From positions 1,245,127 to 1,309,126 of the forward strand of contig RPGP01000040.1 of the NCBI GenBank assembly GCA_004193555.1: a stretch of DNA of 64,000 nucleotides, read 5' to 3'. The position numbers and the translations under genes are program-made. Under the pieces are notes generated by a model. It was given only the letters and a program-made list of their open reading frames with translations. It was not told the origin of the DNA and searched no databases. Within the stretch, counting starts at the first letter, position 1, and every line of letters starts with the position of its first letter. Origin of the DNA: Desulfobacteraceae bacterium Eth-SRB1 (GTDB lineage Bacteria; Desulfobacterota; Desulfobacteria; Desulfobacterales; ETH-SRB1). Shown here in pieces: positions 5,230-50,543 of the stretch.

Positions 5230-6189
5230 TTAGTCCCCAACGATTTTAATTTCTGTTTCCAGCTCGATGTTGAACATGTTTAAGACTTTTTTTTGAACCA
5301 GTTCCATCAGCGTAAGTATATCTGAAGCTGATGCGCTTCCTGTATTTAAAATAAAGTTGGCGTGTTTTGATGAAATCTTAGCCCCGCCTGTTGATTTTCC
5401 TTTAAGCCCGGCCATTTCGATAAGCTGGCCTGCTGTTTTACCGGAAGAAGGGTTTTTAAAGAAGCATCCGGCGTTAGGCAAACCTGCGGGCTGTTTTTTC
5501 TTGCGTGTTTTTAAAATTTCATCAGCTTCCTGTTTTAGTTTTTGCGGATCTGCCTGCGGATCTGAATGATGCAGGCAAAAACAGCCGCTTAATATAATCG
5601 ATCGGCTTTTATAAACGTCCTCTTTCCCCATATTCCATGAGAGCTTTCTGTATTCAAAGCATAAATTATCTTTTGACAGGATTTTATTTTTTCCTGTTGG
5701 AAGTAAAATCTCTATCGAATCGAGGACACTTTCCATGGTTCCATGGGCAGTGCCGGCATTCATAATAATACCCCCGCCAACAGTGCCTGGAATGCCCAGG
5801 GCAAAGTTCATTCCTTCAAGGCCGTTCTCGATGGCAAATGCACAAAGGGCTTGCAGTCTGGCCCCGGCTAAAGCGGTAACAATAACACCATTATTATCTG
5901 TGCCGTTTTGTGTAATTTTATTTAGACACCTTGTCAGAACAATCACAACTCCACGAATGCCGCTGTCCTTTACAAGAAGGTTGGTGCCGTTACCAAATAC
6001 CGTGTAAGGGAGCTCTTTTTGTCCGCACCATTTTATAAGCTTAAGCAGTTTTTCAGGGCTTTCAGGCGCGACAAAGACCTGAGCAGGACCTCCAACACGC
6101 AGAGAGGTATGCTTCGACATGGATTCATCAAATCTGACGCTGTTTTTAAACTGGCGTTCAAGCCATATTTTCGAATTAGAATCAAGCAT
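5230..6189 (-). CDS. murB: UDP-N-acetylenolpyruvoylglucosamine reductase MurB
   Basis: 319 residues from the chosen start. MurB is the FAD enzyme that reduces UDP-GlcNAc-enolpyruvate to UDP-MurNAc with NADPH. FAD-binding motifs FGNGTNLLVKDSGIRG and GIPGTVGGGIIMNAG are present. In the proton-donor motif AGCFFKNP a Cys stands where the E. coli enzyme has Ser; Cys is common in other bacteria. The frame is open back to 6234, but ATG 6189 overlaps the murC stop by only 8 bp and has GGAAGA upstream, so I prefer it. Function is confident, the exact start less so. Confidence 0.95.
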   Translation of the reverse strand: MLDSNSKIWLERQFKNSVRFDESMSKHTSLRVGGPAQVFVAPESPEKLLKLIKWCGQKELPYTVFGNGTNLLVKDSGIRGVVIVLTRCLNKITQNGTDNNGVIVTALAGARLQALCAFAIENGLEGMNFALGIPGTVGGGIIMNAGTAHGTMESVLDSIEILLPTGKNKILSKDNLCFEYRKLSWNMGKEDVYKSRSIILSGCFCLHHSDPQADPQKLKQEADEILKTRKKKQPAGLPNAGCFFKNPSSGKTAGQLIEMAGLKGKSTGGAKISSKHANFILNTGSASASDILTLMELVQKKVLNMFNIELETEIKIVGD

Positions 6190-7549
6190 TATCCAGTATA
6201 TCTTCCCCAACTTTCCACACATCTCCTGCGCCAAGAGTAAGCAGAATATCCCCCTTTTTTAATATTTCTTTCAAACAGGACGAAGAAGCTTTAAGACCCC
6301 GGACGCATATCACCTCTTTATGTCCATGAGCGCTTATTCCTTCACATAGAGACAGGCTGTCCACCCCATTTATTTTTTTCTCTCCGGCAGGATAGATGGG
6401 AAGAACCAGAAGTATATCAGACTGATAGAATGCTCGTGTGAAATCATCAAAAAGCGCCATGGTTCGTGTATATCTGTGTGGTTGAAAGACCACAACAATA
6501 CGTCTGTCCGGCCAGCATGTTTTTAATGCCCTAAGGGTAGTTTTAATTTCCGTGGGGTGATGACCGTAGTCATCCACAACTGTGATTCCCTTTATCTTTC
6601 CTTTTACTTCCAGCCTCCGCTGAACACTATCGATAGTTGTCAGGGCTGATTGAATGATATTAAATGGTATGTTAAGTTCAATTCCCACTGCAATACTTGC
6701 CATAGCATTGTAAATACTATGCAGGCCTGGAAGATTTAAATTTATATCTCCAAGCCTGAAACCGGAATGATAAACAGTAAATCTGCTTGTTAAATCGTTG
6801 AATACCACATCTTTTGCCTGAAAATCGGCCTGAGAACTCATTCCGTATGTAGTAAAGCGTTTCTTTATTTTTGGGATAATGTCCTGTATAGCGTCATTAT
6901 CCAGGCAGAGGACGACAAGACCGTAAAAGGGAATCCGGTCAACAAAGTTTAAAAACACTTCTTTTATTGAGTCTATATCCTTGTAATAATCGAGATGTTC
7001 CCTGTCTATATTGGTTATTACCGCAATTGTAGGAGACATTTTTAAAAAAGACCCGTCACTTTCATCTGCTTCAGCCACAATAAAATCCCCCTTACCAAGA
7101 AAGGCGTTTGCGCCAATACTTTTCAGGTTGCCTCCAATAACAACGGTTGGATCAAGCCCGCCTTTATTAAGGACGCTGGCTATTATAGATGTAGTTGATG
7201 TTTTGCCGTGGGCGCCGGCAATCGCAATGCTGTATTTTAAACGCATAAGTTCAGCTAACATTTCAGCCCTTGGTATCACAGGGATTGATGATTTTTTTGC
7301 CGCGACAACTTCGGGATTTTCAGGGCCGACTGCCGATGAAATTACGACTACATCAGCCTCTTTTATTTGTTTTGCAGCATGCCCTTTAAAAATAGCGCCC
7401 CCTATACTTTTCAAATGCTTTGTAATGGATGATGATTTTATGTCGGATCCGGATACCTCGTACCCTAAATTGAGCAGAAGTTCGGCAATACCGCTCATCC
7501 CGATACCGCCTATTCCTACAAAGTGTATATGATATTTTTTAAGATACAT
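6182..7549 (-). CDS. murC: UDP-N-acetylmuramate--L-alanine ligase MurC
   Basis: 455 residues. MurC adds L-Ala to UDP-MurNAc with ATP hydrolysis, the first amino-acid step of the peptidoglycan stem. The Rossmann start HFVGIGGIGMSG and the Mur-ligase P-loop AGAHGKTSTT (near residue 112) are clear, as are DDYGHHPTEI and FQPHRYTRT further on. It is the first gene after a 143-bp repeat-containing gap that separates it from murG. Its 3' end overlaps murB by 8 bp, suggesting translational coupling. Confidence 0.97.
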   Translation of the reverse strand: MYLKKYHIHFVGIGGIGMSGIAELLLNLGYEVSGSDIKSSSITKHLKSIGGAIFKGHAAKQIKEADVVVISSAVGPENPEVVAAKKSSIPVIPRAEMLAELMRLKYSIAIAGAHGKTSTTSIIASVLNKGGLDPTVVIGGNLKSIGANAFLGKGDFIVAEADESDGSFLKMSPTIAVITNIDREHLDYYKDIDSIKEVFLNFVDRIPFYGLVVLCLDNDAIQDIIPKIKKRFTTYGMSSQADFQAKDVVFNDLTSRFTVYHSGFRLGDINLNLPGLHSIYNAMASIAVGIELNIPFNIIQSALTTIDSVQRRLEVKGKIKGITVVDDYGHHPTEIKTTLRALKTCWPDRRIVVVFQPHRYTRTMALFDDFTRAFYQSDILLVLPIYPAGEKKINGVDSLSLCEGISAHGHKEVICVRGLKASSSCLKEILKKGDILLTLGAGDVWKVGEDILDNA

Positions 7550-7555
7550 AATGTG

Positions 7556-7690
7556 TAAGTTACAAGTGCCTAAAGTGAGCTAAAGCGCCTAAAGTTATGG
7601 AGTCGCTCCGCTCCGGTTGTTTTTTTCCAAATTGAGGAGCGAAGCGACATCATCATTCGATGTTGGACGTTCGATGTTCGACGTTCGTCT
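7556..7690. repeat. Chimeric hairpin-type repeat inside the dcw operon
   Basis: The murC/murG gap holds a left arm of the AAGTGCCTAAAGTGAGCTAA word family (7570-7600) and a right arm of the GATGTTCGACGTTCG word family (7655-7690). Between them are GTCGCTCCGCTCC and GGAGCGAAGCGAC (7636-7648), an imperfect inverted pair. Elsewhere in the window each word family occurs with its own inverted partner, so this copy looks like a recombinant of two elements. It leaves the flanking coding regions intact. Confidence 0.7.
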
Positions 7691-7692
7691 TT

Positions 7693-8796
7693 TCAATGGT
7701 TCAACGTGTAAAAGTCATTGACAATAGCCTCTGCCGCATCCGGTCTGCCAAGTTTTTTTATTCTTGAAGACATGGCTTCAAGGGCATTGGGGTTTGATGC
7801 ATAGTGCCTGATTTTTTCAGCCAGGTCTTTGCCGCTAAAATCTTTTTGGAGGATCATTTCGGCCGCTCCGGCGTTTTTTAATGAAAGAGCGTTTAAAACC
7901 TGGTGGTTGTCGGCTGCAAAAGGATATGGCACGAAAAGCACTCCTTTTCCAATGGCTGAAACTTCCGCTACAGTTGTTGCGCCTGCCCGGCATATTATAA
8001 GATCTGCTCTGCAATATTGCTGAGCCATATCATCGAAAAATGCTTTAACCGTGCATGAAATACCATGAGCCGTGTAAGCATGTTTTATCTTTTCTTCGTC
8101 AGCCGCTCCGGTCTGATGCAGAAAAAAAAACTTATCTTTTTCCTTAATATGCTTTAGGGCCTCAATAACAGCCATATTAATACTGTGCGCCCCCTGGCTC
8201 CCGCCTAAGATCAGAACAGTGAAAGCTTTTGCCTGCCCCGAATATATTTTTTGATTCCCTGCGCATTCCAGAATTTCTTTGCGTACAGGATTGCCGGTGA
8301 CACGAATTTTTTTTTGTCTAATGGCGCTGCAATATCGGAATGCCTTTACCCTGGTATTTTTGAATGAAACATATATCCGGTTGGCAAAATGGGACAATAT
8401 TCGGGTTGTAATTCCAGGCAGAATGTTTTGCTCATGAATTACTATTTTGATTCCTAACAACCATGCCCCAAGACCGACCGGCCCTGCTGAATAACCACCT
8501 ACGCCTAAAACCAGGTCAGGCTTGAAATTTTTAAGGATTTTTACAGATTCAACCACCCCTTTTGGTATTTTTGCGATTGAAACAATTTGGTTCCACAATC
8601 CCCGTCCCTTGATTCCCTCCGCTGTAATAGATTGATACATGAAACAGGTTTTTGATAAAATTGATATTTCAAACGGTTTTCCTGTCCCCATAAAGAGCAC
8701 CTCGTTTTTTTTATCCCTTTCCATGAAGGCCTCTGCAATGGCTATGCCCGGAAAAAGATGACCGCCAGTGCCGCCGCCTGCAATTATTATACGCAT
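7693..8796 (-). CDS. murG: Lipid II synthase MurG (GlcNAc transferase)
   Basis: 367 residues. MurG transfers GlcNAc from UDP-GlcNAc to lipid I on the cytoplasmic face of the membrane, giving lipid II. The glycine-rich loop AGGGTGGHLFPG is at the N-terminus, with LGVGGYSAGP and HEQNILPG following. The C-terminal donor domain has LGGSQGA and CRAGATTVAE. The gene follows ftsW by 3 bp. A GT-B fold of normal length with no defects visible. Confidence 0.97.
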   Translation of the reverse strand: MRIIIAGGGTGGHLFPGIAIAEAFMERDKKNEVLFMGTGKPFEISILSKTCFMYQSITAEGIKGRGLWNQIVSIAKIPKGVVESVKILKNFKPDLVLGVGGYSAGPVGLGAWLLGIKIVIHEQNILPGITTRILSHFANRIYVSFKNTRVKAFRYCSAIRQKKIRVTGNPVRKEILECAGNQKIYSGQAKAFTVLILGGSQGAHSINMAVIEALKHIKEKDKFFFLHQTGAADEEKIKHAYTAHGISCTVKAFFDDMAQQYCRADLIICRAGATTVAEVSAIGKGVLFVPYPFAADNHQVLNALSLKNAGAAEMILQKDFSGKDLAEKIRHYASNPNALEAMSSRIKKLGRPDAAEAIVNDFYTLNH

Positions 8797-11284: not shown

Positions 11285-11444
11285 ATGAACGTCGAACATA
11301 TTAAAAGATGAACATCGAACATCGAACGTCCAACGTCCAACGTCGAATTTTGAATAAGGTATTCTGCCAATTTATAAACTGGCGGAGCGAAGCGACATCA
11401 ACATTCATCATTCGATGTTGAATGTTCGATGTTCGACGTTCATT
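11285..11444. repeat. Hairpin repeat, GAACATCGAACGTC-word family, in the dcw operon
   Basis: A perfect 15-bp inverted pair (11285-11299 and 11430-11444, ATGAACGTCGAACAT) bounds arms made of repeated GAACATCGAACGTCCAACG words. The centre carries AAGGTATTCTGCCAA (11356-11370) and GGAGCGAAGCGAC (11384-11396), shared with other repeats in the window. It fills the 209-bp (11274-11482) murD/mraY gap. A 61-codon open frame across it is a by-product of the repeated words. Confidence 0.85.
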
Positions 11445-21409: not shown

Positions 21410-23191
21410 CTATTTCACCCTTCTGAATCTCAACACAAAGACAGCGCCTTTTGGCTTGTTGTCTTCAACATATGCATATCCGCCGTAGTTTTCCATGGCT
21501 TTTTGAACGATGTGGAGGCCCATGCCGGTGTGGCCTGTGTCTCCGTGCATAAAACCCTCTTCAAAGATATTCGCCTTTATATCATCGGGGATGCCTGTCC
21601 CGTTATCTGCGATGCGCACCTCGCACATATCCCTTTTTTTGTCTGCGGTTATTGTGATTCTGTCGGCCTTCCCGTGAATGACGGCATTTCCTGCGATGTT
21701 GTCTATCACGGAAGCAAGAGAATCATCGGCCATGACCTGGCCCCTGCCTTTGATCTCGAAGTCTATAAATGGATAGTTCTTAATGGTTTCATCTATGACA
21801 TCATTTATCTTGTAAGGTTTCAGCTTGCTGTGGCGGGATATGAAGAATTCAAGCTCTCTCATCCTGTTGATAAGGCTCAGGCTCTTTTTAACGCGGTCCT
21901 CGGCTTCTTCCAGAAGCGCTTTTTCACGGGAGACCTTGTACAGGTTAAGGGAGCTTTTCATAACCACCAGGTCATTCGTCAGGTCGTGGCGGAGTATCTG
22001 GTTGATGAGGGCAAGATGCTCACGGTTGGACTTTACCTCTTCTTCAGCCTCCTTGCGTTCGGTGATGTTGCGGGCAATTCCGATTCTGCCTGTTATCTCT
22101 CCGGTGGCATCCAGAAGCGAGGACACATTCAGTTCTGTCGGCACAGTTCTTCCATCTTTGTGCTTCACTTCAATTTCATAAAGAGAGATATTTCTTCTGT
22201 CGATCCCCTTTTTGAAATGTTCGACCGTTGATTCCACATATTCAGGAACAATAATTTCCGTGAAAGGGTGTCCGATGAGGTCCTGCCAGGAATAACCTGT
22301 TAATCTTTCTACGACAGGACTGATGTAGGTAAATTTTCCATCCAGGTCTAAAACAAAAATTACATCATTTGTTGTCTCGGCAAGCGTGCGGTATTTCTTT
22401 TCGGAATCGCGCAGCGCCTTCTCTGTCTGCTTGCGCTCGGTGATATCTCGCCAGATCGTGTGAAGAATTTGATTATTTTTATCGTCAGAAATAGCGGTCA
22501 ACGACACCTCAACGGGGAAAATTTCTCCATCAGATTTCTTATGATACCATTCGAAGCGGTGACCGCCATTTTTAAAAGCTGTCTTCATCATTTCATCTGC
22601 TTTTGTAAATGACATTTTTCCGTCCGGTTGTTTTTCCGGTGATAATTCCGAAGGATGCGTATTTAATAGCTCATCTTTATTATTATAACGAAGCATTTCA
22701 ATCGCGGCTTGATTACAATCCACAAATTTCCTATTATAAATAATTAAAATAGCATCCTTTGCTTTTTCAAATAAATTTCTATACTTCTCCTCACACTCCC
22801 GCAGCTTTTTATCCATCTTATATTTGTGAAGGGCTATCTCTACGGCGGCTTGCAGCTCGATATCCTTGAAAGGCTTGAACAGGCAGCCGAAGGGCTCCGA
22901 GCGCGTGATATCTTCCAGCCCGGCATCACTGACATTGGCGGTGACGTACACAACGGGAATGTCAAAACGGGTACGGATCTGACCGGCCGCTTCCACGCCG
23001 TCCATCTCTCCCTGCAGTATGATATCCATCAGGACCAGATCAGGGCGCAGCGATTCGGCCTTTTTGACGGCATCTTCTCCCGAAGAGATAATGGCAGATA
23101 TATCGTATCCCATGGATTCCAGCTTGTGCCGCATTTCCAGGGCGATGATCCGCTCATCCTCAACGATCAGTATCTTTGGTTTTTTATCCAT
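21410..23191 (-). CDS. Receiver-PAS-PAS histidine kinase
   Basis: 593 residues, cytoplasmic, with no membrane segment. Domains in order: receiver (1-125; D56, K106), two PAS domains (about 130-255 and 265-385, each ending in a PAC motif such as GRIGIARNITERKEAEEE), an H-box LRHDLTND with His at 402, and an ATPase domain with N-box (SVIDNIAGNAVIHGKA), G1 (DNGTGIPDD) and GHTGMGLHIV. The N-terminal receiver suggests input from another kinase, perhaps those encoded just upstream. The final 200 residues are very close to those of the kinase at 25971-27767, indicating duplication. Confidence 0.9.
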   Translation of the reverse strand: MDKKPKILIVEDERIIALEMRHKLESMGYDISAIISSGEDAVKKAESLRPDLVLMDIILQGEMDGVEAAGQIRTRFDIPVVYVTANVSDAGLEDITRSEPFGCLFKPFKDIELQAAVEIALHKYKMDKKLRECEEKYRNLFEKAKDAILIIYNRKFVDCNQAAIEMLRYNNKDELLNTHPSELSPEKQPDGKMSFTKADEMMKTAFKNGGHRFEWYHKKSDGEIFPVEVSLTAISDDKNNQILHTIWRDITERKQTEKALRDSEKKYRTLAETTNDVIFVLDLDGKFTYISPVVERLTGYSWQDLIGHPFTEIIVPEYVESTVEHFKKGIDRRNISLYEIEVKHKDGRTVPTELNVSSLLDATGEITGRIGIARNITERKEAEEEVKSNREHLALINQILRHDLTNDLVVMKSSLNLYKVSREKALLEEAEDRVKKSLSLINRMRELEFFISRHSKLKPYKINDVIDETIKNYPFIDFEIKGRGQVMADDSLASVIDNIAGNAVIHGKADRITITADKKRDMCEVRIADNGTGIPDDIKANIFEEGFMHGDTGHTGMGLHIVQKAMENYGGYAYVEDNKPKGAVFVLRFRRVK

Positions 23192-25970: not shown

Positions 25971-27767
25971 TCACTTCACCATCCTGAATCTCAGCGCAAT
26001 GACGGCCCCTTTTGGCTTGTTGTCTTCAACATACGCGTAACCGCCGTAGTTTTCCATGGCCTTTTTGACTATGTGGAGACCGAGACCTGTGTGGCCTGTG
26101 TCTCCGTACATGAAGCCCTCTTCGAAGATCTTTTTCTTTATCTCATCGGGGATGCCTGTTCCATTGTCGGCGATGCGCACCTCGCACATAGCTCCTTTTT
26201 TGTCTGTGGTTATTGTGATTCTGTCGGCCTTCCCGTGAATAACGGCATTTCCTACGATATTGTCTATGACGGAGGCAAGAGAATCGTCGGCCATTACCTC
26301 GACCCTGCCTTTGACTTTAAAGCCTGTAGATGGATAGTTCTTAATGGTTTCATCTATAACATCATTTATCTTGTACGGTTTCAGCTTCCTGTGGCGGGAC
26401 ATGAAGGATTCAAGCTCCCCCATCCTGTTGATCAGTTCAATGCATTTCCCCGAATGTGAGGATATCTCTTTCAGGAATTGCGCTTCGGGAGATTTATTGT
26501 AAAGATTGATTGCGCTCTGTATGATCACGAGGTCATTCGTCAGGTCGTGGCGGAGTATCTGGTTGATGAGGGCAAGGTGCTCACGGTGGGATTTTACCTC
26601 TTCTTCCGCCTGTTTGCGGTTGGTGATGTCTCTGGCAATACTTAAAATCACCTGTTTCCCATGATAAGTTACAAAACTATATTTAACTTCCACTGGAATT
26701 GTCTTCCCATCTTTGGTGGAGTGTGTTGTTTCAAAAACCTGCATTTTATCGGTGGGCATTTGTTCGATTAAACCTTTTATCTCTCCCGCGTTTACAGATG
26801 TATCGATATCTTGAGGTCCCATAGAAAGCAATTCTTCCATAGAATAGCCTAAAACCTCAACAGCAGCATCATTTACATCGATAAAGTTCGCATTAAAATC
26901 AATGACCCAAGCTGTGTCACTCATCCCGTTAATTAACGCTCTATACTTCTCTTCGCTCTCCCGCAGCGCCGCCTCCGTTTTTTTGTGTGCGTCAATCTCT
27001 CTGTTGAGATTATCTATGGAGACTGTGCTTTTCTTCAGATCTTCCATCATACCGTCAAACGCCCTTGAAAGATGTCCGATCTCATCCTTTGCGTCTGTGC
27101 CCACCCTGTGGTCCAGGTTGCCGGCACCGATAATCCGTATACCCTTCTCCAGTCTTGTTACCGGCGCTCCGATGCTTCTGCTGATCCATAAGGAGATCGC
27201 TGAAACAAAACCGGCAAAGACTATAAACAGGATAATCGTGAACAAACCGGTTTTCCGCTGGATAGATACCAGCTTTGCCTGAATTGCCTGATTCACCAGA
27301 AAGACCCGGGAAACCATTGACTGAGACTCCACCAGCAGGTCGCCTGTCAGTTTAACTTTCAGATTAGAGAGCCCGTTTTTTTGATGCCCGCCATATTCTC
27401 TCTTTTCTCCAGGGATTGCGACCAGTTCAGCAAAAATATCTGAAAATCGTTCAAGGCTTTTGAGCGTTTTTTTCAAAGCGTCTTTTCCGCCAGAATCTTC
27501 AAAAATGTTTGCCTCTTCCGCCAGGAGCTTTGTCAGAGAATCGCGGCTTGTTTCCCACTGTATGAGCGAACGTTCTCCGGGATAGAGCAGATACTCACCT
27601 GTTACGATTCTCAGTTCAGCCATATTTCTGGTTACTCTGCCTGTTGTGATCGCTTTTCGGCCACATTCACTCATTTCCCTGTACGCGCCGAAAATAAACA
27701 GGCTAATCACGACAGATATGATCAGGGTCAAGATAATGGCGATCCGTAATCTGGTCTTGATTTTCAT
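25971..27767 (-). CDS. Membrane sensor histidine kinase (HAMP-PAS)
   Basis: 598 residues. Two membrane segments (about 8-28 and 172-194) bracket a helical periplasmic sensor region. A HAMP domain (about 195-248, RLEKGIRIIGAGNLDHRVG) and one PAS domain (about 270-390) lead to an H-box LRHDLTND (His near 407) and the ATPase domain (DNGTGIPDE). The C-terminal 200 residues match the kinase at 21410-23191 closely, but the sensor parts differ. An AGGAG site overlaps the stop codon of the truncated lipoprotein gene just upstream (13-bp gap), so the two are co-transcribed. Confidence 0.9.
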   Translation of the reverse strand: MKIKTRLRIAIILTLIISVVISLFIFGAYREMSECGRKAITTGRVTRNMAELRIVTGEYLLYPGERSLIQWETSRDSLTKLLAEEANIFEDSGGKDALKKTLKSLERFSDIFAELVAIPGEKREYGGHQKNGLSNLKVKLTGDLLVESQSMVSRVFLVNQAIQAKLVSIQRKTGLFTIILFIVFAGFVSAISLWISRSIGAPVTRLEKGIRIIGAGNLDHRVGTDAKDEIGHLSRAFDGMMEDLKKSTVSIDNLNREIDAHKKTEAALRESEEKYRALINGMSDTAWVIDFNANFIDVNDAAVEVLGYSMEELLSMGPQDIDTSVNAGEIKGLIEQMPTDKMQVFETTHSTKDGKTIPVEVKYSFVTYHGKQVILSIARDITNRKQAEEEVKSHREHLALINQILRHDLTNDLVIIQSAINLYNKSPEAQFLKEISSHSGKCIELINRMGELESFMSRHRKLKPYKINDVIDETIKNYPSTGFKVKGRVEVMADDSLASVIDNIVGNAVIHGKADRITITTDKKGAMCEVRIADNGTGIPDEIKKKIFEEGFMYGDTGHTGLGLHIVKKAMENYGGYAYVEDNKPKGAVIALRFRMVK

Positions 27768-28333: not shown

Positions 28334-28345
28334 TGAGGGCAACTT

Positions 28346-29430
28346 GGGGACATCCATTTAATTATTGGTTTACCTGCTTTTTAAGGTTCAAACCCTGTTT
28401 TTCTGCAATTTTCTTTCCTCTCGAAACCGCCTGGCTTACTGTAGGTTGAGCTAAATTTACCTTTTTTGCCAACTCAACAGTTGTCATCCCAAGTTCACGC
28501 ACCCCCCAGTAACACAACAAGCTGCGGGCCTTAACTGTTTTGACATATTTACCGGCAGCCAATACATCCTTTGGCTCAATTCCCAATAGCTGTGCCACAC
28601 GTTTAATTAGCCAGTCAAAATTATAACCTTGTGCCTCAAGCTCATACTTGCGCTCTAAGTTTTCTTGAGCAGCTTTTAATACGGTTTCAACAAAATCCCC
28701 TTCACCCAATATTCGCTCATCACTTTTCATCCGGTCCCGGCGCAATGCTTTGACCGCTGACCACCCTCCGGCGCTGCGGATCAATCCTCCTCCTGTTAAA
28801 TCAGACCTTCGGCCATCTGCAATGCCTTTTTCCACATATTTACGGTAACGCCGCCGGGCCGTCGAACACTTGCTGGCATAGAATTTTAAAATGTAATCCG
28901 CGTCTTGCCAGTCACGTTTTCTTTTGCCCATCAGCACGTTATGGCCGCAATACGGATATTTATCTAAACCCTTTAGATCCTTAACAAGCCTTGCCCGTAA
29001 TGGATTTAAATGAATATAGCGAACCAACTCTAATAAATACAAATCTTCCTGGCATAAAATGGATTTATAACGATTCTGAAACAGGTGTCCGTGTCTGTGA
29101 TGACGATGGTTAAAGCTAACAGCATAACCGGTTAAAAGACGCCGCATCACTGTCGCAATCGGGGTGAGACCTGTTCGCAGTAACAAATGCAGGTGGTTTG
29201 GAATTAAGGCCCAGGCGAAACAGGGAGTGCCGGTTTCTGTTAAAACAACGCCTAACCGTTCCAGAAAATTATTCCTGTCTGGATCATCATAAAAAATCTT
29301 ACGCCGTTCGATTCCCCTTACAATAATATGATGCAGGGCGCCGGGAGCATCTATGCGGGCTTTGCGTGGCATATTATCTGAATATCATACATGAAATCGT
29401 TTGTAAACCAATAATCAAATGGGCGTCCCC
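28346..29430 (-). mobile_element. REP-type transposon with 28-bp terminal inverted repeats
   Basis: Left end 28346-28373 and right end 29403-29430 are inverted copies matching at 25 of 28 positions (they begin GGGGAC and end TTATTGGTTTAC). They enclose one transposase gene whose stop codon lies within the left repeat. No target-site duplication is obvious. The right end lies 66 bp from the 3' end of tRNA-Glu. The intact gene and well-preserved ends suggest recent arrival. Confidence 0.8.
28362..29372 (-). CDS. REP-associated tyrosine transposase (Y1/HUH family)
   Basis: 336 residues. The N-terminal Y1 transposase domain starts ARIDAPGALHHIIVRGIERR, carries the HUH motif in PNHLHLLLRTG and the HGHLFQNRYKSIL region that holds the catalytic Tyr, and ends YIHLNPLRARLVKDL. 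The C-terminal part (about 230-330) ends in a DnaA-like helix-turn-helix (GVRELGMTTVELAKKVN..TVSQAVSRGKK). Such enzymes cut single-stranded hairpin DNA and are thought to spread REP palindromes. The window is rich in hairpin repeats, so this enzyme or its relatives may act on some of them; that is inference. Confidence 0.92.
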   Translation of the reverse strand: MPRKARIDAPGALHHIIVRGIERRKIFYDDPDRNNFLERLGVVLTETGTPCFAWALIPNHLHLLLRTGLTPIATVMRRLLTGYAVSFNHRHHRHGHLFQNRYKSILCQEDLYLLELVRYIHLNPLRARLVKDLKGLDKYPYCGHNVLMGKRKRDWQDADYILKFYASKCSTARRRYRKYVEKGIADGRRSDLTGGGLIRSAGGWSAVKALRRDRMKSDERILGEGDFVETVLKAAQENLERKYELEAQGYNFDWLIKRVAQLLGIEPKDVLAAGKYVKTVKARSLLCYWGVRELGMTTVELAKKVNLAQPTVSQAVSRGKKIAEKQGLNLKKQVNQ

Positions 29431-29496
29431 AATCGTCAAAATTTTAGATATAAAAAAAAGAGTTGCGAATATTCCGTAACCCTTTGATATCATTAT

Positions 29497-30883: not shown

Positions 30884-31160
30884 TTTATTTAAACATAGAA
30901 AACCTGGCCCTCAGGACCAGGTCAGAGTTTTCCGGCTCTGCCTGAAGAAACGCTGCAAAAGTTTAAAGTGAACTAAAGTGCCTAAAGTGAGCTAAAGTTA
31001 AGGAATTCTATCAATTATATAAAATCAGTGGAGCGAAGCGACTCCACAACTTTAGGCACTTTAGCTCACTTTAGGCACTTATAACTTATACGGTTTTAAG
31101 TACAACAGCTCCTTTCAGGGGCAAACCAAAGCCTGGTCCTTTGGGCCAGGATTCTTTACT
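30884..31160. repeat. 277-bp inverted-repeat-ended element, copy 1
   Basis: Identical to 33865-34141 except for one visible substitution (CAGCTCC versus CAGCCCC). The ends carry CCTGGCCCTCAGGACCAGG (30903-30921) and its inverted near-copy (31132-31150, 17 of 19 matches). Inside are inverted arms of CTAAAGTGCCTAAAGTGAG words around the core AAGGAATTCT (31000) and GGAGCGAAGCGAC (31030-31042). No protein is encoded, so it is MITE-like. Its right end runs into the 3' end of the PHP gene. Confidence 0.92.
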
Positions 31161-31957: not shown

Positions 31958-32032
31958 TTCTTTAATTTAATAGTATAGGAATTTCCATTTTATGCTTAAT
32001 GAAATTGGTACTATAGGTATAGATGAGTAAAA

Positions 32033-32269
32033 AGTGCCTAAAGTGAGCTAAAGTATATTAAAGTGCCTAAAGTTAAGGAATGCGCCTTCGGCACTGCCAA
32101 TTTTAATTTTTTTCACCATACAACTTTGCTTACTTTGTTTCTACCTGCCGCGACGGGCACGAGCACGGCGGGTCTGAAGTTATAACCAAGCCCTGAAGAT
32201 CTATAGCACGCCGAAGGCGTACCACAACTTTAGGCATTTTAGGCACTTTAGATCACTTTAGGCACTTAT
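32033..32269. repeat. Long hairpin repeat upstream of radA
   Basis: The left arm (32033-32080) and right arm (32222-32269) are inverted arrays of CTAAAGTGCCTAAAGTGAG-like words. Just inside, GCGCCTTCGGC and GCCGAAGGCGT form a second inverted pair. The loop of about 120 nt is unlike the other copies and contains ACCTGCCGCGACGGGCACGA. It occupies half of the 475-bp gap between the PHP gene and radA. Nothing else is recognised there, and no clear radA promoter is seen. Confidence 0.8.
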
Positions 32270-33864: not shown

Positions 33865-34141
33865 TTTATTTAAACATAGAAAACCTGGCCCTCAGGACCA
33901 GGTCAGAGTTTTCCGGCTCTGCCTGAAGAAACGCTGCAAAAGTTTAAAGTGAACTAAAGTGCCTAAAGTGAGCTAAAGTTAAGGAATTCTATCAATTATA
34001 TAAAATCAGTGGAGCGAAGCGACTCCACAACTTTAGGCACTTTAGCTCACTTTAGGCACTTATAACTTATACGGTTTTAAGTACAACAGCCCCTTTCAGG
34101 GGCAAACCAAAGCCTGGTCCTTTGGGCCAGGATTCTTTACT
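33865..34141. repeat. 277-bp inverted-repeat-ended element, copy 2
   Basis: Same orientation as copy 1 at 30884-31160, offset 2981 bp, with one visible substitution. It lies in the radA/rlmE gap, inside no gene. The two direct copies enclose the PHP gene and radA. The remaining part of this 508-bp gap (34142-34308) shows no feature except a short Shine-Dalgarno-poor leader for rlmE. Confidence 0.92.
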
Positions 34142-50395: not shown

Positions 50396-50543
50396 AATAT
50401 CGAACAAGGAATTATGAATATCGAAGTAAGGTATTCTATCATTTTTATTAGTATAAAAGATAGCTTGCCGGGGCATAGCCGTAGGCGACGCCTGGAGCGT
50501 AGCGATACCACAATTCATCATTCGAAATTCCTTGTTCGATATT
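50396..50543. repeat. Hairpin repeat after the pilT operon
   Basis: AATATCGAACAAGGAATT (50396-50413) has a perfect inverted copy at 50526-50543. The centre carries AAGGTATTCTATCA (50428-50441) and GGAGCGTAGCGAT (50494-50506), the core shared with the elements at 11285, 30884 and 33865. Arms differ from those copies. It lies between the convergent pilT operon and coaX, in a 312-bp gap that shows nothing else. Confidence 0.85.

Follow-up and report, generated by a model that had tools for sequence, protein, structure and literature searches.

A two-family palindromic repeat element between murG and murC of Desulfobacteraceae bacterium Eth-SRB1 and a recurring set of like-oriented hybrids between genes

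In Desulfobacteraceae bacterium Eth-SRB1, which is related to sulfate-reducing bacteria, the gap between the cell-wall genes murG and murC contains a repeat element whose two arms are built from words of different families. Does it record one exchange of arms at this site, or does it belong to a larger set of hybrid repeats? Coordinates below refer to the window, which is the whole 64,000-nt stretch of DNA analyzed. The gap is 143 bp long and separates murG (7693–8796, minus strand), the upstream gene, from murC (6182–7549, minus strand), the downstream gene. The hybrid element occupies 7564–7686 and has one arm of A words and one of B words around a shared core. The A-word arm (AAGTGCCTAAAGTGAGCTAAAGCGCCTAAAGT; 7564–7595, plus strand), a direct repeat, forms the half towards the murC start codon. 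It is followed by the core copy of the A half (7599–7614, minus strand), which reads GGAGTCGCTCCGCTCC on the plus strand and GGAGCGGAGCGAC on the minus strand at 7614–7602. A 21-nt spacer (GGTTGTTTTTTTCCAAATTGA; 7615–7635), of a type common to the other composites, leads to the core copy of the B half (GGAGCGAAGCGAC; 7636–7648, plus strand). The B-word arm, composed of the heptamers TTCGATG, TTGGACG, and TTCGACG (7656–7686, plus strand), forms the half after the murG stop codon. The core is present twice in inverted orientation (7602–7614 and 7636–7648), a feature overlooked in the preliminary description, and the two copies form a hairpin (7602–7648) in which all 13 pairs form on the gene strand (minus), one of them U-G.

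Exact word matches to AAGTGCCTAAAGTGAGC (7564–7580) in the left arm, GATGTTCGACGTTC (7673–7686) in the right arm, and the core GGAGCGAAGCGAC between them confirm that the element is a chimera of two families, as the preliminary description had proposed. All three words are enriched in the window relative to the means of 100 dinucleotide shuffles, with 8 matches against 0.11 for AAGTGCCTAAAGTGAGC (≤3 mismatches), 9 against 0.39 for GATGTTCGACGTTC (≤2 mismatches), and 6 against 0.87 for GGAGCGAAGCGAC (≤2 mismatches). The nearest named relatives of this genome are MAGs labelled Desulfobacteraceae. An Rfam 15 scan of the window returned only the SRP RNA and one tRNA, with no match to the element at gathering score, which rules out a known RNA family as its identity. 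The plasmid and phage collections gave no match and no sign of a plasmid or phage origin. An assembly artefact was also ruled out, because the same junction recurs at eight loci of the genome and in two other genomes.

In the whole genome (3.34 Mb, 52 contigs), 92 sites lie within one mismatch of GGAGCGAAGCGAC, compared to a single site for the reversed pattern. The flanks of all 92 were inspected, with arm types assigned by an automatic call and then by eye; two mosaic sites, both in L006, had been labelled C automatically and were reassigned. The automatic call gave 24 A/A and 18 B/B sites, 18 sites fall in 12 mosaic elements, and the remainder are half-units, sites with other arms, or unrelated sites. 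The murG–murC element is therefore the single visible case, as it had been called, only within the window. Eight of the mosaics are double-core composites, namely the murG–murC element (L001), L002, L003, L004, L006, L007, L009, and L010. Of the other four, L005 joins an A half of another inner type to a B half, C29:512531 (also L176) has A and B arms around a single core, and C40:326504 and C1:33033 are opposite mosaics with the B arm on the left and the A arm on the right. At least four junction types are thus present among the 12 mosaics. Solo B half-units are also common in the genome. The centres of 28 of 30 elements lie outside open frames of 150 codons.

The window also contains single-family elements, including a B/B element with one core (11287–11440) and an A/A element with one core (30964–31082), the latter lying within a longer mobile repeat and having an identical second copy (33945–34063). 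A further A-arm element (32032–32267), which is absent in the sister species, has a different inner hairpin of the GCGCCTTCGGC type and a long insert. The mobile repeat with the A/A hairpin is about 273 bp long and is found in the window at 30887–31159 and 33868–34140; 11 near-identical copies were aligned. It has hairpins close to both ends (CCTGGCCCTCAGGACCAGG and CCTGGTCCTTTGGGCCAGG), its right end is TTTAC, and it resembles a non-autonomous IS200/IS605-type element. Both window copies are absent in the sister species, which together with the 11 copies indicates that at least some of these hairpins ride on larger mobile repeats.

The preliminary description held that the murG–murC element cannot form the full hairpin, which is true of the arms and not of the core. 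When the left arm was scored against the reverse complement of the right arm, median complementarity was 45 for A/A (n=23, a set that includes 11 copies of the mobile repeat, so that its rows are not independent), 40 for B/B (n=17), and 13 for double-core A/B elements (n=8), equal to shuffled arms (13–14). An interrupted A/A element (C1:876750) and an element with its B arm far from the core (C1:141744) were left out of these counts and of the orientation counts below. Folding z-scores were −7.7 for A/A and −6.1 for B/B. For the murG–murC element the score was −3.5 with the gene strand, −2.0 with the opposite strand, −4.1 for the core hairpin alone (62 nt), and −1.6 for the element as single-stranded DNA. 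The two cores are predicted to pair into a 13-bp hairpin with the unlike arms left unpaired. No covariation was found in the core hairpin, where 8 of 16 pairs are invariant and shuffles score as well.

An alignment of ten composites (eight of this genome and one each of the sister species and of another genus) is unambiguous from the A-side core through the spacer (RTTTGTTTTC-AAATTGA type) to the B-side core, with 87% mean column identity. This argues for one ancestor and not for repeated fresh exchange. The composite L004 is found at the orthologous site of the sister species (L111). For the single-core element L176, the orthologous site in G014, a member of another genus, has the full double-core composite (L110), which indicates that the composite is older than the genus split and that L176 lost one core. 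Composite loci are thus common to species or genera, with the same junction and spacer in three genomes, and a single arm exchange confined to the murG–murC site, as originally proposed, does not fit these data. A strict double-core pattern was matched in 3 of 291 genomes, an undercount, as the pattern recovers only 2 of the 8 composites known in this genome. Core matches were found in 47 of 94 genomes among relatives, many of them from another repeat, TCATTGCGAGGAGCGAAGCGAC, or inside genes. The same core lies inside this different, widespread repeat at L082, L087, L088, L092, L093, L094, and L096.

At the eight double-core loci, the sister species has one composite, one B half only, and six sites without a composite (L001, L002, L003, L007, L009, and L010). 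Some of these absences could be deletions, and several of the sister gaps contain other repeats. At L006 the sister (L122) keeps the B half, with TTCAGG words on the left side and neither an A arm nor a second core. The G014 counterpart of L005 (L123) has the B half alone, and that of L007 (L280) has a B..B element in the same gap, which is short in G003 and G007. Partners therefore change in place at fixed loci, and pairs of this kind do not separate gain from loss. L009 and L112 were dropped as an ortholog pair since their upstream genes are mismatched. A gap in G008 orthologous to L009 (L294) contains a long hairpin of CACAGAGG-type words.

Based on these comparisons, we consider it fairly probable that in the murG–murC element two palindromic half-units are joined head to head as a hybrid dimer, which has spread between genes and is restricted in orientation within operons. 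In each half-unit the 13-nt core would be joined to short tandem words running outward, from family A in one half and from family B in the other. The orthologous copy in both genera shows that the hybrid is older than their split, and it may then have appeared at further intergenic sites of the lineage, the murG–murC gap included. The sister sites would reflect, locus by locus, either gain here or loss there. New copies may have been made by movement in trans, most probably through an enzyme that works on single-stranded hairpins in the way suggested for REP dimers. The hybrid itself is probably cargo that the cell tolerates, and any effect on the murG–murC message would be mild at most.

The strongest competitor to dimer spread is stepwise assembly, in which an A half (arm and core) was added later beside a resident B half-unit, or was lost again. 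We regard this as unlikely, though it has more in its favour than the other alternatives. The comparison of L006 with L122 fits it, as both loci have the TTCAGGG words on one side and the spacer and B half on the other and L006 has about 35 nt of A arm and core in between, and at L005 versus L123 the A arm is present in the Eth-SRB1 genome only. B half-units with other left neighbours also have the spacer TTGTTTTCCAAATTGA in common. However, the aligned composites agree to the base in where the A core joins the spacer, so that later insertion would need a strong site preference, and deletion in the relative would yield the same pattern.

At all nine composite loci examined, C29:512531 and the eight of the double-core type, the neighbouring genes are co-directional and the element faces the same way, with the B half following the upstream stop and the A half preceding the downstream start. 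Among other elements between co-directional genes, this orientation is seen in 9 of 20 A/A (a set with the same 11 mobile copies), 6 of 12 B/B, and 7 of 14 half-B elements (22 of 46 in total). The bias, noticed post hoc and resting on nine loci of one family, has a two-sided sign-test value of 0.004 and a hypergeometric value of 0.003 against the other elements. The nearest open frames on both sides were used, so that flanking genes are open frames only, and at L002 the upstream frame has 89 codons and lies about 400 bp away. The input comprised 20 half-B, 17 B/B, and 23 A/A elements and the nine composites, from which two half-B and one B/B had an unusable flank or locus; the three remaining mosaics, L005, C40:326504, and C1:33033, stayed outside the test. 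This one-orientation rule of composites between co-directional genes is new here.

The two strands of the composites differ in pairing. In the 13-bp core stem, 124 of 130 cells are paired on the gene strand compared to 116 on the other, because the common core difference gives U-G on the former and a C-A mismatch on the latter. Predicted energies make the gene strand more stable in 6 of 8 composites, the exceptions being L002 and L007. A consensus scan identified a terminator-like hairpin followed by a T-run, made up of the A-side core and the spacer, on the non-gene strand of 6 of 8 composites; it found none on the gene strand of any of the eight, and none on either strand in L002 and L010. 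The bias most likely stems from selection against termination inside operons, a post hoc reading. In the reverse orientation the element would stop transcription inside operons, murG–murC included, and such copies would be removed. Within operons the hybrid would thus persist only with its B half upstream, given that its other strand resembles an intrinsic terminator.

The same orientation and strand data could reflect a functional intercistronic RNA hairpin selected to tune expression of the downstream gene. MurC was found in all 58 genomes searched, with 30 loci returned, one of which is the window's own, and the murG–murC gap was readable in 28 of the 29 relatives (L055 has no murG). When 27 of these gaps were scored (L074 was excluded for its Ns, and L053, with 13 nt, was counted as without), 12 had tandem words and 7 folded at z < −2.5 with other sequences, as would suit a selected hairpin, whereas 20 did not fold strongly. 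The lack of covariation, the absence of an Rfam match, and the lack of orientation bias in the symmetric elements also argue against a selected RNA, and we consider this explanation improbable. Six relatives (L051, L052, L060, L063, L065, and L067) have their own tandem words in this gap. The gap of L065, with GGATTAGA words on one side and CATCAATC words on the other, is another mosaic.

The view of the preliminary description, that an A/A and a B/B element traded an arm in a one-off recombination at the murG–murC site, predicted a one-family form in relatives. Neither A nor B arms were found in any of the 28 readable gaps, so that the one-family form and the mosaic are equally absent there. 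The sister species (92% MurC identity) has an unrelated hairpin of GGAATTGA words in this gap, and the composite therefore either arrived after the sister split or was replaced in the sister. A/A, B/B, and A/B elements do coexist in one genome with a core in common, and partners differ between orthologs at other loci, as recombination would allow. However, A/A and B/B elements have one core and the composite has two inverted cores, for which a simple crossover in the core is insufficient, and one junction is common to eight loci of this genome and to two other genomes. A one-off event is accordingly very unlikely. Partner exchange is supported as a process by the other loci and is not supported as the origin of the murG–murC copy.

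Least probable of all is template switching in the hairpin during replication, a process reportedly described at inverted repeats in one study (PMC8794818), which would homogenize arms and could import foreign words: the same gap in related species has word hairpins with matching arms and different words, yet in the Eth-SRB1 genome arms paired within an element resemble each other no more than arms taken across elements (permutation p 0.93 for B/B and 0.65 for A/A, with the 11 mobile A/A copies taken as one and two B/B elements with another inner hairpin left out), and arm homogenization by this route in that genome was rejected for now.

Among known systems, the head-to-head dimer favoured here is closest in form to hybrid REP dimers. 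Head-to-head REP dimers of the GTAG/CGTC super-families, including hybrids of different families, and the coexistence of singletons and dimers are described by Di Nocera 2013 (PMC3733652), where hybrid dimers (about 10%) are noted in Stenotrophomonas and heterodimers are suggested to escape hairpin clearance. The murG–murC element, like those dimers, is a two-family intergenic palindrome arranged head to head with a short spacer; unlike them, its half-units have long tandem-word arms. The core is a high-copy short extragenic palindrome (92 sites versus one control), and the eight double-core composites are inverted dimers with a spacer of 16–21 nt. The unpaired GTAG/CGTC tag of REPs is absent at both core ends in the ten-composite alignment, which has a GGAG stretch only. 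As described in PMC3116915, REPINs likewise have two inverted conserved short sequences with a spacer, form hairpins, and are extragenic and dispersed, but a REPIN has ends of a single type and is associated with a RAYT, whereas here the arms are of two families and a link to a RAYT was not found. The BIMEs with RAYTs described in PMC2817692 are also mosaics of inverted palindromic units between genes, but here there is no regularly spaced array, the core is different, and no cognate RAYT was found. MITEs insert precisely, with terminal repeats and a target duplication; for comparison, the composite is missing from the sister at six of the eight loci.

Cyanobacterial STRRs are likewise tandem 7-mers in intergenic regions and are spread across distant groups. 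TAACTGA heptamer repeats are reported between genes of Beggiatoaceae and cyanobacteria by MacGregor 2015 (PMC4679880); they resemble the present words as intergenic tandem 7-mers spread across distant groups, and differ from them in that the words here are paired arms around a conserved core hairpin. No published description of the hybrid element was found in the open-licence literature. The recurring set of hybrids facing one way between genes is a variant of known bacterial palindromic repeats and not a one-off accident.

A total of 14 matches to the Y1-transposase family (PF01797) were retrieved from the genome, 13 of them above cut-off. None of the 14 is flanked by the core within 1.5 kb on either side, in an incomplete assembly where a gene may have been missed, so that the cognate RAYT flanked by the same repeat, typical of REPINs and BIMEs, was not among them. 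Within that distance the core is seen near L037 alone, at the distal end of the flank. The lack of both the tag and a transposase link places the element as a variant like a hybrid REP dimer and not as a member of the super-family. At L042 (about 1100–2000), a 182-aa Y1-transposase frame has GGAGCRAG palindrome arrays on both sides; it is a good RAYT–REP pair, unrelated to the hybrid element. In the window, a RAYT-like Y1-transposase gene encoding 336 aa (28362–29372) is accompanied by a 30-nt inverted repeat (28344–28373 and 29403–29432) that is 90% complementary.

The arm words found are 7–10 nt long and include A, B, TTCAGG, GGAATTGA, TGATAAT, and others. They tentatively suggest an order-wide class of conserved core hairpins whose interchangeable word arms are replaced in place and whose unlike-arm hybrids are kept orientation-restricted in operons, a generalization that we hold to be possible and less likely than not to extend so far. 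If such a class exists, bacterial intergenic hairpins would evolve by swaps of whole word arms and not by point mutation. Orthologous sites with the same hybrid, one half, another partner, or nothing provide a comparative case in which one can ask how palindromic repeats gain and change partners. The uniform direction of the composites between co-directional genes yields a simple testable rule, that a palindromic hitchhiker survives in an operon only in the non-terminating direction.

Other repeats were noted in the course of the analysis. At 50396–50543 the window has an inverted, degenerate element of B-like type with words TCGAACAAGGAATT, and the L009 gap of the sister has a similar one. 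The hairpin module CCTGCCGCGAC...GAGCACGGCGGG recurs as an insert within word arms, at L111 (about 1460–1490), in the second gap of L045, and in the window at about 32144–32173. Two pairs of direct repeats in the window (21414–21713 with 25975–26274, and 21936–22078 with 26497–26639) are 84–86% alike and 4561 bp apart, forming a diverged duplication.
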